From the NCBI GenBank assembly GCA_017507065.1, contig JAFWBO010000113.1:1-34043 (forward strand): 34,043 bases of DNA, written 5' to 3'. A program made the position numbers and the translations under genes. The notes under the pieces were generated by a model. That model was not told the DNA's origin. It saw nothing but the letters and a program-made list of their open reading frames with translations, and made no database searches. This document shows, in pieces, positions 9,348 through 15,457 of the stretch. Every line of letters starts with the position of its first letter. Position 1 is the first letter of the stretch. Source of the DNA: Kiritimatiellia bacterium. GTDB lineage: Bacteria > Verrucomicrobiota > Kiritimatiellia > RFP12 > UBA1067.

Positions 9348-9400
9348 CGTGTTTCCTTTCAGTCAAGAACGATATATACTTTAAAACCGGTTGCGACGCT

Positions 9401-9429
9401 ATTCTACCACATCGTCTTCCTGTTGTCAA
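9401..9429 (-). promoter_or_regulatory. sigma70-type promoter for MGMT-fusion gene
   Basis: On the minus strand: a perfect -35 TTGACA (9429-9424), a 17-nt spacer, and -10 TAGAAT (9406-9401) with TGG before it. The predicted start of transcription is near 9394, a leader of about 47 nt, with GAAAGGA as ribosome-binding site before the ATG at 9347. It is divergent from the plus-strand promoter at 9479-9508. Confidence 0.85.
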
Positions 9430-9478
9430 ACCGCCCGCCGGCGGCGCAGACGAAATTTTAAAGTTTTGCACGCCGCCG

Positions 9479-9508
9479 CTGAAAAATTCCTCTCAATTAT
9501 GATATAAT
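9479..9508 (+). promoter_or_regulatory. extended -10 promoter, predicted leaderless transcript
   Basis: TATAAT at 9503-9508 is preceded by TGA (extended -10). A fair -35 CTGAAA lies at 9479-9484 with an 18-nt spacer. Only 7 nt separate the -10 from the ATG at 9516, so transcription should start at or next to the A of the start codon. No ribosome-binding site can fit. Confidence 0.75.
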
Positions 9509-9515
9509 ACGAAGC

Positions 9516-10346
9516 ATGAACAACGACAACACCATCCAGTCGGAACAAGGACCGATCCCTTCGAGCGCCGTGAGCATCTACGGCGGAGCGGATGCAATGG
9601 ACGATTTCCCCGTCCTCAAAGCGTTTCAGCAATATATCGACGCGGAACAGGCGAAAGCCCAAAAGCGCATGACGACGCTCTGCATTCTTTTCGCGATCGT
9701 TCTCGCCGCTGTGATCGGCGTCTTTCTACTTCTTCTTGCGAACGTCTCCCAGAGAAACGCGACGCTGAACGACAGGCTTATCGAATACGTGATGAGCGGC
9801 AGAGCGCAGGCCGCCGATTTCAGGCAGGACAGCGCCGCGAACGTCAAAGAACTGAAAGAGAACATCGAGGAAATGAAGCGGCAGCTCGAGGAAGAGCGGC
9901 GCAAAACCGAAGAAAAGCAGAACGAGCTCTTCTCTCGCCAGGCGAAAGCGCTTGAAGAGCGCGCGGCGATTCTCAATGCCAAAAGCAGGCAGGACGCTGA
10001 AAACGAGAAAATCGCTCTTGAAAAGAAAAACAAAGCCGCGTCGGAAAAAATAAAAAAGGCCGCCGCTCTTCTCGCTGAAGAAAAGAAAAAGATAGACGGC
10101 GAGAAAGAACTTCTCCGCAAACGCGAGGCCGAACTCAAGCGCCAGAAAGCGGCTCTCGAAAGCCGCGCCGCGGCAGCGCGCAAACCGTCTCCGAAGCCGG
10201 CTACTCAAAAAACGGCAGCCCCGCATCCCGCCGCGAGCGCCCCGAAAACGTACTTCGACGAAGAAACGCTCGATCTCGACAGCGCTCTCGACAACATGAA
10301 AATCGAACTTGACGGCGGCGACAAAATCGACTGGTCGATAGACTGA
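9516..10346 (+). CDS. membrane-anchored coiled-coil protein, unknown function
   Basis: I recognise no family. The 276-residue protein has a short polar N-terminus (1-50), one transmembrane helix (about 53-75) preceded by KAQKR, which suggests the N-terminus is cytoplasmic, and then a long charged coiled coil (about 105-215) rich in Glu, Lys, Gln and Ala. A Pro/Ala/Lys linker (about 217-240) leads to an acidic tail ending DKIDWSID. The topology therefore points to a periplasmic coiled coil, such as a scaffold or spacer. The first ATG is only 7 nt from a TATAAT, implying a leaderless mRNA; an alternative Met28 (9597) has a weak GGAG upstream. It stands alone on the plus strand and converges on the feo operon, sharing the hairpin at 10380-10407. 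Confidence 0.75.
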   Translation: MNNDNTIQSEQGPIPSSAVSIYGGADAMDDFPVLKAFQQYIDAEQAKAQKRMTTLCILFAIVLAAVIGVFLLLLANVSQRNATLNDRLIEYVMSGRAQAADFRQDSAANVKELKENIEEMKRQLEEERRKTEEKQNELFSRQAKALEERAAILNAKSRQDAENEKIALEKKNKAASEKIKKAAALLAEEKKKIDGEKELLRKREAELKRQKAALESRAAAARKPSPKPATQKTAAPHPAASAPKTYFDEETLDLDSALDNMKIELDGGDKIDWSID

Positions 10347-11655: not shown

Positions 11656-14166
11656 CTATGCTTTCGATTTTCTCGTCACGGCCCAGATGCAGAAGATATC
11701 CGCGGCGATCGCGACGACGGTCCAGACTCCGAACACTCCGCCGGAGAAAAGCATGCCGAGCTGGTAGACGCTGAGCGCGAGCACGTATCCGACGAAAAGC
11801 TGGAAGCCTACGGCGAACCACCCCCATGCTTTCGATCCCATCTCGCGGAACGTCACGGCTATGGCGACCATGCACGGCGGGACGAAGAGGTTGAAGAGCA
11901 TGAACGAGAACGCCGCAAGAAGCGGGAACTTGCTCATCGAACCGAAGAGCGACTGTATCTGCGCGGCGGTCGAAGCGCCGTCCATGCCGGATGCCACGAG
12001 GCCAAGCGTGGCCGTCGCCTGCTCTTTTGCGATTTCGGCCGAAACCGTGGCCGCCGCATCCTGCCACGTGCCGAACCCGAGAGGCGCGAAAAGCCAGGCG
12101 ATGGCGCTGCCGAGATCGTGGAGAATCGACTTCTCGATCTCTTCATCGGCCAGAACGTTGAACGACCAGTCGAAGTGCATTATGAACCAGAGAAACACGC
12201 ACGCGGGGAATATCACGAGGCCGGCCTTGAGCATATATCCCTTGACGCGGTTCCACGTGTGGCGCCACACGCCGGAAAGCGTCGGCATATGGTATGCGGG
12301 AAGCTCCATAACGAAAGGCGCCGCATCGCCCGCGAACATACGCGTCTTCTTGAGCGCGATGCCGCCCAGGACTATTATGGCGATTCCGATTACATCCATA
12401 AGAGGAGCGACATACCACATCTCGCGGAAGAAGACGGCCGCAAACATGGCTATTATCACCGTCTTGGCCCCGCAAGGTATGAACGTCGCGAGAATTATCG
12501 TCATGCGCTGGTCGCGGCGGTTCTCTATGGCTCTCGCCGCCATCACCGCCGGCACCCCGCACCCTTTGCCGACTATCATCGGTATGAAGGACTTGCCCGA
12601 AAGACCGAAACGCCTGAAGATGCGGTCCATGATGAACGCCACGCGGGCCATATAGCCGCAGTCTTCGAGAAACGCGAGGAAGAGGAACACCACGAATATC
12701 ACTGGCACGAACCCGAGGACCGTGGCGACGCCGCCCCATGCTCCGTCGTTGACGAGAGATGCGACAGTCTCGCCGACGCCGAGCTTTTCAAGCCCTGTCG
12801 CGATAAGCGCTCCAATGCCCGGCACCCACACGCCGAAATCGGAAGGATCCGGCTCGGGGAAAGCCTTTGACGCTTTGTAGGCGGCGTAGTCGCACGTCCA
12901 CCTGCGCTCCTTGCCGTCGTCGTCGACGACTGTTTCGCCGGTTTCTTCGTCTTCGAGAGAAGCTTCAGCCTTCACCGACGCCGCGATGCGCTCGTCGAGC
13001 TTTCCTTCGACGTTTTCTATCGGCTCGAAACCTTCTTTGCCTTTGTTGGCCCCGTTGAACGCCTCCACGTAGGCGCCTTCCCACACTTCGATGTTTTTCG
13101 CATGCGGAGCATACGCTTCCTGCGCGGCTTCCCAGTCCATATTCTTGTAGGGGCCGTCGGCCGAGCTTTCGTGCGTCGTGAAAGGAACATGCCATCCATC
13201 GGTCCCGAGGAGGCCGTCGTTCGCCCAGTCGGTGAGAACCGTGCCGGGGCCGTTGTCGGAAACGGCGAGGAACCACATGGCGCAAAGCGAGAGAATGAAA
13301 ACCGGAATGGCGAGAATGCGGTTTGTGACGATGCGGTCGATTCTGTCGGAGAGCGAGACCTTGTTCTTCCTCGCCTCGCTCTTCGCGAGCGCCTTCGACA
13401 TGAGAGACTGGATGAACTCGTACCGCTGGCCGGTTATTATCGATTCGGCATCGTCGTCGAGTTCCTTCTCGCAATCGCGGATGTGCTCTTCGAGATGCTT
13501 CATGAGGCCGACGCCGATATCGAGATTCTTGATGATATCGCGGTCGCGCTCGAAAATCTTGATCGCGTACCAGCGTATCGAATCTTTCGGCACCTTCCCC
13601 TGTATGGATTCTTCAATGTGCGCAAGCGCGTGCTCTACAGATCCGGTGAAGACGTGCGGAACCTCCCCCTTGCGCCCCGTTTCGGCAAGCGAAAGCGCCT
13701 TTCGCGCAGCCTCGAGGCCGCCCTCTTTTTTCAAGGCCGATATTCCGACCACCTCGCATCCGAGAGCCTTGCCGATTCTTGCGAAATCGATCTTGTCGCC
13801 GTTTTTCTTTACGACGTCCATCATGTTTACGGCCAGCACCATCGGGATGCCGAGTTCCGCGAGCTGCGTGGAAAGATAGAGGTTGCGCTCGATGTTCGTG
13901 CCGTCGACAATGTTCAAAATCGCGTCAGGACGCTCTTCGACGAGAAACTTCCTCGACACTTTTTCTTCGAGCGAGTACGGCGAAAGCGAATATATGCCGG
14001 GGAGGTCCTGTATGACGACATCCTTCGTTCCTTCGAGAATGCCGTCTTTTTTCTCAACGGTCACGCCCGGCCAGTTTCCGACATACTGGCTCGAGCCGGT
14101 AAGAGCGTTGAAAAGCGTCGTTTTGCCCGAATTCGGGTTGCCCGCAAGGGCGATTTTCACTGACAT
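11656..14166 (-). CDS. feoB: ferrous iron transporter FeoB
   Basis: The 836-residue inner-membrane Fe2+ transporter. The N-terminal G domain has GNPNSGKT (G1, 9-16), DLPG (G3, 54-57), NMMD (G4, 114-117) and SAL (G5, 143-145), then a helical region to about 270. The membrane part holds two gate repeats: EDCGYMARVAFIMDR...GKGCGVPAVMAAR (about 501-545), FIPCGAKT (562-569) and NLFVPPCMVAIA (759-770), with conserved cysteines. Odd point: between the first and second membrane helices (about 303-470) there is a long acidic, soluble segment where most FeoB proteins have a much shorter loop. The start follows AGAAAGG. It lies 14 nt after the second feoA. Confidence 0.96.
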   Translation of the reverse strand: MSVKIALAGNPNSGKTTLFNALTGSSQYVGNWPGVTVEKKDGILEGTKDVVIQDLPGIYSLSPYSLEEKVSRKFLVEERPDAILNIVDGTNIERNLYLSTQLAELGIPMVLAVNMMDVVKKNGDKIDFARIGKALGCEVVGISALKKEGGLEAARKALSLAETGRKGEVPHVFTGSVEHALAHIEESIQGKVPKDSIRWYAIKIFERDRDIIKNLDIGVGLMKHLEEHIRDCEKELDDDAESIITGQRYEFIQSLMSKALAKSEARKNKVSLSDRIDRIVTNRILAIPVFILSLCAMWFLAVSDNGPGTVLTDWANDGLLGTDGWHVPFTTHESSADGPYKNMDWEAAQEAYAPHAKNIEVWEGAYVEAFNGANKGKEGFEPIENVEGKLDERIAASVKAEASLEDEETGETVVDDDGKERRWTCDYAAYKASKAFPEPDPSDFGVWVPGIGALIATGLEKLGVGETVASLVNDGAWGGVATVLGFVPVIFVVFLFLAFLEDCGYMARVAFIMDRIFRRFGLSGKSFIPMIVGKGCGVPAVMAARAIENRRDQRMTIILATFIPCGAKTVIIAMFAAVFFREMWYVAPLMDVIGIAIIVLGGIALKKTRMFAGDAAPFVMELPAYHMPTLSGVWRHTWNRVKGYMLKAGLVIFPACVFLWFIMHFDWSFNVLADEEIEKSILHDLGSAIAWLFAPLGFGTWQDAAATVSAEIAKEQATATLGLVASGMDGASTAAQIQSLFGSMSKFPLLAAFSFMLFNLFVPPCMVAIAVTFREMGSKAWGWFAVGFQLFVGYVLALSVYQLGMLFSGGVFGVWTVVAIAADIFCIWAVTRKSKA

Positions 14167-14180
14167 GCCCTGTTCCTTTC

Positions 14181-14408
14181 TCAGTTCTGGATGTCGACTT
14201 CTATGTTGAGCGCCTCTTCTTTGCGAAGCGAAAGTTCATAGCCTCGCACCGTGATCTCTATGGGATCGCCGAGGGGGGCCACTTTGCGAACCGCGACGGA
14301 AGCGCCCTTCGTAAGCCCCATGTCCATTATACGCCGCTTGACGGCGCCTTCGCCGCGTATCGCCGAAATCCTTCCGGACCGTCCGGGCTGAATTTTATCG
14401 AGTGTCAT
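14181..14408 (-). CDS. feoA: FeoA-domain protein (second copy)
   Basis: A 75-residue SH3-like FeoA protein that acts with FeoB in Fe2+ uptake. The pattern is complete: IQPGRSGRISAI near the N-terminus, RRIMDMGLTKGASVAV (25-40), APLGDPIEITVRGYELSLRKEEA to the end. The last part is the classic FeoA ending. I take the ATG at 14408 because it gives the family N-terminus and has GGAAAGGA upstream. An ATG at 14438, which overlaps the first feoA stop as TGATG, would add ten residues and is possible. Confidence 0.9.
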   Translation of the reverse strand: MTLDKIQPGRSGRISAIRGEGAVKRRIMDMGLTKGASVAVRKVAPLGDPIEITVRGYELSLRKEEALNIEVDIQN

Positions 14409-14437: not shown

Positions 14438-14656
14438 TCAAAGCGGCTCGACCATCAGTTTGTTCGCGAGCTCCGCGTTGAGAGCAAGGCGACTTTCGTG
14501 TATGCCGACAATCATGTTGCCGCCGTCGGACTGCACGATGCTGACGACGACGCCCGGGACGAAACCCAGCGCGCCGAGATGCTTTTTCGCATCCTCGGCT
14601 CCCGTAACGGCCACGACTCTTGCTTTCGCGCCGGGCTTGATCATCGATAGCGGCAT
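14438..14656 (-). CDS. feoA: FeoA-domain protein (first copy)
   Basis: A 72-residue FeoA-like protein and first gene of the feo operon. IKPGAKARVVAVTG is at 5-18, HLGALGFVPGVVVSIVQ at 26-42, then the tail GNMIVGIHESRLALNAELANKL. Compared with the second copy it is more divergent, and its start of the last strand reads MIVGIHESRLAL, typical of the FeoA1-type partner in two-feoA operons. A TTG at 14683 could extend it, but the ATG at 14654-14656 has GGAAAGG 8 nt upstream and is the better start. The leader from the promoter is about 70 nt and carries one operator-like half-site. Confidence 0.88.
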   Translation of the reverse strand: MPLSMIKPGAKARVVAVTGAEDAKKHLGALGFVPGVVVSIVQSDGGNMIVGIHESRLALNAELANKLMVEPL

Positions 14657-14690: not shown

Positions 14691-14700
14691 ATTAGCCATG
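14691..14700. promoter_or_regulatory. operator-like half-site in feo leader
   Basis: ATTAGCCATG repeats the left ten bases of the palindrome at 14746-14761 exactly. Its right half is not conserved, so it is at most a weak or half operator within the untranslated leader. Confidence 0.4.
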
Positions 14701-14710
14701 TATCACTTCA

Positions 14711-14724
14711 TTAGTCTTGGCTAA
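14711..14724. promoter_or_regulatory. feo operator palindrome, near transcription start
   Basis: TTAGTCTTGGCTAA is an imperfect palindrome of the same TTAGYC/GGCTAA half-sites. It covers the region just downstream of the predicted start of transcription (about 14728), where a bound repressor would block the polymerase. Confidence 0.55.
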
Positions 14725-14734
14725 GATGTCGCGT

Positions 14735-14764
14735 ATTATACCATAATTAGCCATGGTTAATCAA
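14735..14764 (-). promoter_or_regulatory. feo operon promoter with AT-rich upstream element
   Basis: On the minus strand: -35 TTGATT (14764-14759), 18-nt spacer, and extended -10 TGGTATAAT with TATAAT at 14740-14735. Directly upstream of the -35 (14765-14785) is an almost pure T tract that could act as an UP element, and also as a T-run just past the stop of the preceding gene at 14783. The operator palindrome at 14746-14761 sits over the spacer and -35. Confidence 0.78.
14746..14761. promoter_or_regulatory. feo operator palindrome over -35/spacer
   Basis: ATTAGCCATGGTTAAT is a 16-bp palindrome with a single mismatched base pair. Its position inside the promoter fits a repressor site. The half-site TTAGCC/GGCTAA recalls DtxR/IdeR-type boxes (TTAGG...CCTAA) more than a Fur box, but is not identical to either, so the regulator is unnamed. 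Confidence 0.6.
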
Positions 14765-14782: not shown

Positions 14783-15457
14783 TCACCGGCCGGGACGGGG
14801 CGCGGCGTACGGGATCGTGACGGTGTCGGGACGGTTTATCTCGCCGGCCGAACCGGACACGCCGCGGCGGGAATGCACCCATACCGACTTCGTGTATCCG
14901 GCGCGGTCGATATAGTTGTGCTTTAACACCCAAAGCGCCCTCTTGTCGTCGAAATCGCCGTCGACGAGAATGTGAAGCGTCTTTTCCCTGTCGTAGCCGG
15001 CTTTGTCGAGAAGCTCGGGAATCTCTTCGGGGAGAGCCGGGCGGTCCCGGAAAAGAAGACCGTTGCGCGTGACGCGCACAGGCGCCGAAACGGCGGTCGA
15101 AACAGGCGGCCCCTCGACGGGAACTATGCATCCGCAGACAGACAGCAGCGCCATGTACGCCGCCGTCCCGGCTATAATGCCCACGAGCGGATTTTTGGAA
15201 AGGAAATACGCTCCGGCGGTTACAGCCGCCGCGGCATACGGCCAAGGGGTCTTCCATTCCAGCCCGGAAAACGAATAAACGATAAGCAATCCTATCATCA
15301 CCGGAGAGATGTATCTGTCGATGCGCCTGAGCCATGCCGGAGCCGACGCACGGGAACCGAAAACCAGAAACGGCAGAGCCCGGAGAAAATACGTGACGGC
15401 CCATCCGGCGGCTATGGCAAGGAGGACGTAAACGTTTCTGTCGAGAGAATTTTCCAT
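14783..15457 (-). CDS. AzlD-like membrane domain fused to ExbD/TolR-like domain
   Basis: A 224-residue protein in two parts. Residues 1 to about 110 match AzlD, the small partner of the AzlC branched-chain amino acid exporter: AVTYFLRALPFLVFG (20-34), then LRRIDRYISPVMIGLLIVYSF (43-63) and two further helices. Residues about 120-200 are soluble and look like the periplasmic ExbD/TolR fold: a VRVTRNGLLFRDRPALPEEIPELL strand-helix, LHILVDGDFDDKRALWVL, and a final strand SVWVHS. AzlD proteins usually end near 110 residues and sit beside azlC, which is absent here. The AzlD half is fairly clear, the ExbD-like reading tentative. It ends the pheT operon, 17 nt after the GT2-GtrA gene. Confidence 0.7.
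   Translation of the reverse strand: MENSLDRNVYVLLAIAAGWAVTYFLRALPFLVFGSRASAPAWLRRIDRYISPVMIGLLIVYSFSGLEWKTPWPYAAAAVTAGAYFLSKNPLVGIIAGTAAYMALLSVCGCIVPVEGPPVSTAVSAPVRVTRNGLLFRDRPALPEEIPELLDKAGYDREKTLHILVDGDFDDKRALWVLKHNYIDRAGYTKSVWVHSRRGVSGSAGEINRPDTVTIPYAAPRPGR

Follow-up and report, generated by a model that had tools for sequence, protein, structure and literature searches.

The promoter of the ferrous-iron transport operon (feo) in a gut Kiritimatiellae bacterium carries two palindromes of the TTAG-N6-CTAA type on either side of its -10 box and, judged from sequence, these sites very probably form the feo operator of an MntR-like metalloregulator from the DtxR family; the one protein of that family in this genome is the likeliest candidate. 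The operator is genuine and conserved, and its principle, a metal repressor acting on feo, is an ordinary one; what is apparently new is how the sites are spelt and how widely this code is shared between phyla. The stretch of DNA analysed here (the window) comprises 34,043 nucleotides and belongs to an assembly of 1.25 Mb, which is 72% complete.

The feo operon and its promoter

On the minus strand of the window, the operon starts with two genes for FeoA-domain proteins, feoA1 (14438-14656; Pfam PF04023, E 9e-18) and feoA2 (14181-14408; PF04023, E 2.9e-22), followed by feoB for the ferrous iron transporter (11656-14166; Pfam FeoB_N, Gate and FeoB_C; TIGR00437 above cut-off), and both the FeoA and FeoB genes required of a Feo system are present. 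The nearest named FeoB records come from MAGs labelled Kiritimatiellae, Lentisphaerae or Verrucomicrobia, for the most part from ruminant guts. Outside its own group, FeoB shares about 50% identity with FeoB of gut Clostridia, which also have the same operator, and a transfer of the whole cassette across phyla is possible. FeoA1 shows a match (E 3e-4) to the C-terminal SH3-like part of the DtxR-family model NF047407, the very domain that is missing from the DtxR protein of this genome. Upstream of feo and on the same strand lies a gene for an AzlD-domain protein (14783-15457), in which the Pfam match leaves an additional C-terminal half, about 115 amino acids long, uncovered.

The predicted feo promoter, the sole promoter-like site of the region, consists of a -35 box TTGATT (14764-14759, minus strand), an 18-nt spacer and a -10 box TATAAT (14740-14735) preceded by TG. 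Site 1, ATTAACCATGGCTAAT (14746-14761, minus strand), pairs in 7 of 8 positions and lies over the spacer and the final bases of the -35 box, whereas site 2, TTAGCCAAGACTAA (14711-14724, minus strand; 5 of 7 pairs), follows downstream of the -10 box, immediately past the likely transcription start point. Both are imperfect as palindromes. A weak third site, TGATACATGGCTAA (14692-14705, minus strand), holds the half-site ATGGCTAA and differs by three mismatches from TTAGCCNNGGCTAA; it is not notable alone and is given weight only because its spacing of 19 nt from site 2 (centre to centre) recurs in relatives. The centres of sites 1 and 2 are 36 nt apart. The preliminary description, made from the letters of the window, had these features right: two palindromes around the -10 box, the upper one with a single mismatched pair in 16 bp over the -35 box and spacer, a further half-site in the leader, and the two centre spacings. 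No terminator was called in the promoter and leader area holding the sites.

Rarity of the sites

Allowing at most one mismatch, TTAGCCNNGGCTAA matches twice in the window against 0.02 matches expected, and none of 100 shuffles of the window reaches two. At the same stringency, sites 1 and 2 are the sole occurrences of TTARCCNNGGYTAA in the whole assembly; with two mismatches, the majority of the matches that could be placed fall within genes, and those examined yield no clear additional operator. The genes for pyruvate:ferredoxin oxidoreductase (PFOR) and NuoE, which carry similar sites in relatives (see below), are absent from this incomplete assembly, so that sites can be shown only at feo in the bacterium's own genome. 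A count over 78.7 kb of sequence preceding feoB, drawn from 41 genomes of the order, gave 19 sites with at most one mismatch and 0 for the reversed pattern. A chance origin is ruled out by the assembly scan, the window shuffles and the TTAG-N6-CTAA counts at feo given below; the objection foreseen in the preliminary description, that such sites might be equally frequent at random positions, thus does not apply. The broad pattern TTAGNCNNGNCTAA is nevertheless near chance overall when whole genomes are scanned, its reversed control being equally or more frequent, and lone matches far from feo are therefore trusted only if they are repeated across genomes.

Conservation in the genus and the order

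Related sites are present in most feo promoters of the same genus. In the 160 nt preceding the first feo gene, TTAG-N6-CTAA was counted 11 times across 28 loci of the genus (0.1 expected) and five times across 13 loci from elsewhere in the order (0.04 expected), and two site layouts can be distinguished. In the first (the window, G007, G011, G012 and G032), one palindrome lies in the spacer between the -35 and -10 boxes and a second one 34-36 nt downstream; these promoters align as an almost unbroken block, TTGATTA....GGCTAATT..TATAAT, kept in five genomes of the genus. The second layout has a pair of sites spaced at 15 nt (TTAGATWTGGTAAA-c-TTTGCSNNGTCTAA), of which the first overlaps the -10 region. 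An additional site 19 nt further on is found in six genomes (G006, G009, G012, G020, G022 and G032), and no clear site was seen at G013 of the same genus or at two loci of genus g6 of the same order.

Two other palindromes were encountered in relatives. One, resembling TTAGACATGGCTAA, lies within the operon and surrounds the start codon of feoB (ATG GCT AA) in many relatives (L245 1837-1850; G012:C51:4334-4347; G032:C28:39179-39192; G007:C59:24953-24966; L237, L239 and L243) and is absent in the window; it is an additional operator or else a small start-codon hairpin. The other, TTAGNCAAGGCTAA, is repeated and directly adjoins tracts of some 8-11 C or G (L231, L238, L240, L244 and L247-L257) upstream of genes whose products are of a secreted or surface type. 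These cases come from other genera within the family (G061, G058, G076, G130 and others), and the palindrome is possibly a promoter element there, with a slippery, phase-variable tract. With their C/G tracts and surface-type proteins, the sites of G061 and G058 were set aside as a different element, not the same operator.

Conservation in Clostridia

An independent set of 60 distant loci with the same type of FeoB, nearly all from Clostridia with a few from Spirochaetes and others, played no part in defining the pattern. In the 1 kb upstream of these loci, TTAG-N6-CTAA occurs 151 times against 0.9 expected, 57 of the 60 loci have at least one such site upstream of feo, and the consensus reads GTTAGC-N4-GCTAAC. 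About 24 loci show the order -35 box, site, -10 box and usually a second site, which resembles the layout of the window; paired sites are commonly 25 or 29-31 nt apart. In 17 of these loci, for example L210 of the cultured Cuneatibacter sp. NSJ-177, a DtxR-family gene is divergent from feo, with the sites in the intervening region. Conservation upstream of feo, on whose lack the proposal of an operator could have foundered, thus extends from related genomes to Clostridia. The preliminary description had suggested an iron-responsive repressor with a recognition sequence of its own; the operator stands, but the sequence is no private one, being a variant DtxR-family box common to many gut Clostridia, and both the metal sensed and repression itself are presumed.

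Possible other targets in relatives

Of 30 relatives, 20 have similar sites at a distance of 70-121 nt before NuoE (control 0), and 11 have them before PFOR (control 1), there mostly at 91-101 nt; in a few cases such sites lie near rubrerythrin and flavodoxin genes. About seven PFOR promoters have the site immediately before the -35 region, at some 27 nt from the -10 box, a position that fits activation. At NuoE the site overlaps the -35 box, and its right half-site may be kept partly as a promoter element. Taken as predicted from sequence, the NuoE and PFOR sites suggest an iron regulon.

The candidate regulator and the metal it senses

The search for a DtxR, MntR or Fur gene returned one DtxR-family protein, 133-149 amino acids long, in the bacterium's own genome (contig C124, about 9384-9833, outside the window), in which both the N-terminal winged helix (PF01325, Fe_dep_repress, 49.8 bits) and the metal-binding and dimerisation domain (PF02742, Fe_dep_repr_C, 63.8 bits) score above cut-off. 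It is MntR-like, without the SH3 domain, and its best PDB match is MntR. Its gene is not near feo; the link between regulator and operator is made by co-occurrence of the family and by adjacency in other lineages, as in the clostridial loci above and in four genomes of the order (G038, G040, G043 and G047), where a DtxR-family gene lies directly upstream of feoB. The family is near-universal in the relatives, being detected in 29 of 35 genomes of the genus and in all seven that are at least 90% complete; G007 and G011, both 82% complete, have good sites and no detected DtxR gene.

All 29 homologues read have the metal ligands D, E, H, C, E, H, a mixed site with Asp as in MntR (the D8 position) and Cys as in DtxR/IdeR. 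Of the two sulfur ligands of DtxR/IdeR, Met10 and Cys102, only the Cys is kept and Asp replaces Met; of the six MntR ligands (D8, E11, H77, E99, E102 and H103) five are present, E99 being Cys. The iron selectivity of IdeR has been credited partly to Met10 and Cys102, as opposed to Asp/Asn and Glu in MntR (PMC10317159), and by this comparison the Cys of the regulator leans to iron, while the MntR-type Asp could mean that it answers Mn2+ besides, or instead of, Fe2+. Among the clostridial DtxR-family proteins read, most have Met or Asn replacing Asp, together with Cys.

It is accordingly conceivable, if rather unlikely, that the same operator and DtxR-family regulator respond chiefly to Mn2+, as a true MntR would, with feo being part of an Fe/Mn balance. 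The structurally solved closest relatives are indeed MntR proteins, and the missing SH3 domain and the Asp at the D8 position agree with this. However, Glu99 of MntR is replaced by Cys, as in the iron-sensing DtxR/IdeR, and sulfur ligands increase Fe2+ selectivity (PMC10317159). In score, too, the protein falls short of the NCBIfam equivalog cut-offs for MntR (104.5 against 153 and 89.7 against 138 bits), and the predicted targets are feo, NuoE and PFOR, with no Mn transporter among the few neighbours read. Having failed these cut-offs and one MntR ligand, the protein is not classed as MntR.

Fur is the usual regulator of feo, and no match to it (PF01475) was found in the bacterium's own genome, an absence that is provisional at 72% completeness. 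That a Fur-family protein missed in this incomplete assembly binds the operator is nonetheless very improbable: Fur was detected in only 4 of 35 genomes of the genus and in none of the seven that are at least 90% complete, all of which have DtxR, and the gene adjoining the sites in Clostridia belongs to the DtxR family. As the preliminary description had put it, the sites are unlike a Fur box; they do not resemble the delta-proteobacterial Fur sites listed in PMC545781. We rejected Fur as the regulator, since the search did not find it in this genome and it is rare in the genus. An action of the sites in RNA, or as promoter or terminator elements, would agree with their location in and around promoter and leader, but it is the least credible reading, as palindromes are found both downstream and in the spacer, which is not transcribed, vary in their central bases while both TTAG/CTAA arms are kept, and recur at differing distances, all of which is typical of dimer-binding DNA sites.

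Comparison with known systems

The DtxR/IdeR box is TTAGGTTAGSCTAACCTAA, and a single-dimer 14-bp site, TTAGGNNNNCCTAA, occurred at a nuo promoter (PMC10317159, PMC8464063). The sites described here share with it the 14-bp frame TTAG-N6-CTAA, the connection to iron genes, a position overlapping the -10 region or the start of transcription and, with the NuoE promoters of the relatives, an occurrence at nuo. Their half-sites, however, are GCTAA or ACTAA instead of CCTAA, the fifth base being C or A and not G, so that neither form of the box is present and the site is not classed as an IdeR box. This bears out the preliminary description, in which the half-site was said to resemble DtxR/IdeR boxes without equalling them. 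The classic 19-bp double box is absent as well, its place being taken by individual palindromes at spacings of 15, 19 or 34-36 nt, and the candidate regulator differs in lacking the SH3 domain.

With MntR of Bacillus subtilis and E. coli the regulator shares protein size, domain make-up, best PDB matches and the Asp at position 8, but it differs in the Cys for Glu99, in a target that is feo and not Mn transport, and in its score. Arrays of sites are also known for MntR of B. subtilis, of which four dimers bind an 84-bp region (PMC11275975); this gives each dimer about 20 bp, close to the 19-nt spacing observed here. TroR of Treponema denticola is likewise a DtxR-family repressor that mixes DtxR and MntR properties and answers both Mn2+ and Fe2+ (PMC2628430); unlike the present regulator, it controls an ABC transporter and has Asn at position 10, Glu for Cys and an SH3-like domain. 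Regulation of feo by Fur has the target operon and the expected logic in common with our system, but relies on another protein family and another box. The system is thus a DtxR-family one with traits of both IdeR and MntR.

Proposed mechanism and implications

With sufficient cytoplasmic Fe2+, metal-loaded dimers of the regulator would occupy site 1, between the -35 and -10 boxes, and site 2, at the transcript start, their binding being aided by the weaker third site. Dimers over the spacer and the start point would then block RNA polymerase and switch off ferrous-iron uptake, and a drop in iron would release the apo-protein and allow feo to be transcribed. We infer the block of the polymerase from the position of sites 1 and 2, and binding, iron as effector, repression as sign and cooperativity are likewise put forward as probable. 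In known systems, IdeR boxes of repressed genes overlap the -10 box or start point (PMC10317159), and MntR occupies arrays of adjacent sites cooperatively (PMC11275975).

More tentatively, and with somewhat less than even confidence, we propose that a separate branch of the DtxR family in gut Clostridia and Kiritimatiellae serves as the main iron sensor in place of Fur. This branch would be marked by the code GTTAGC-N4-GCTAAC, by multi-site operators and, in Kiritimatiellae, by the mixed Asp/Cys site, and it would repress feo while activating, from a site immediately before the -35 box, energy enzymes rich in iron, such as PFOR. A literature search that left out most subscription papers and regulon databases found nothing on iron regulation in Kiritimatiellae, nor any paper in which the consensus is printed as a text string; given that coverage, the latter result is weak evidence of novelty. 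Taken together, the operator and its regulator offer a testable account of iron sensing in gut bacteria without detectable Fur, in which the operator code and the mixed Asp/Cys site make targets and metal preference predictable and open to checking in cultured Clostridia.
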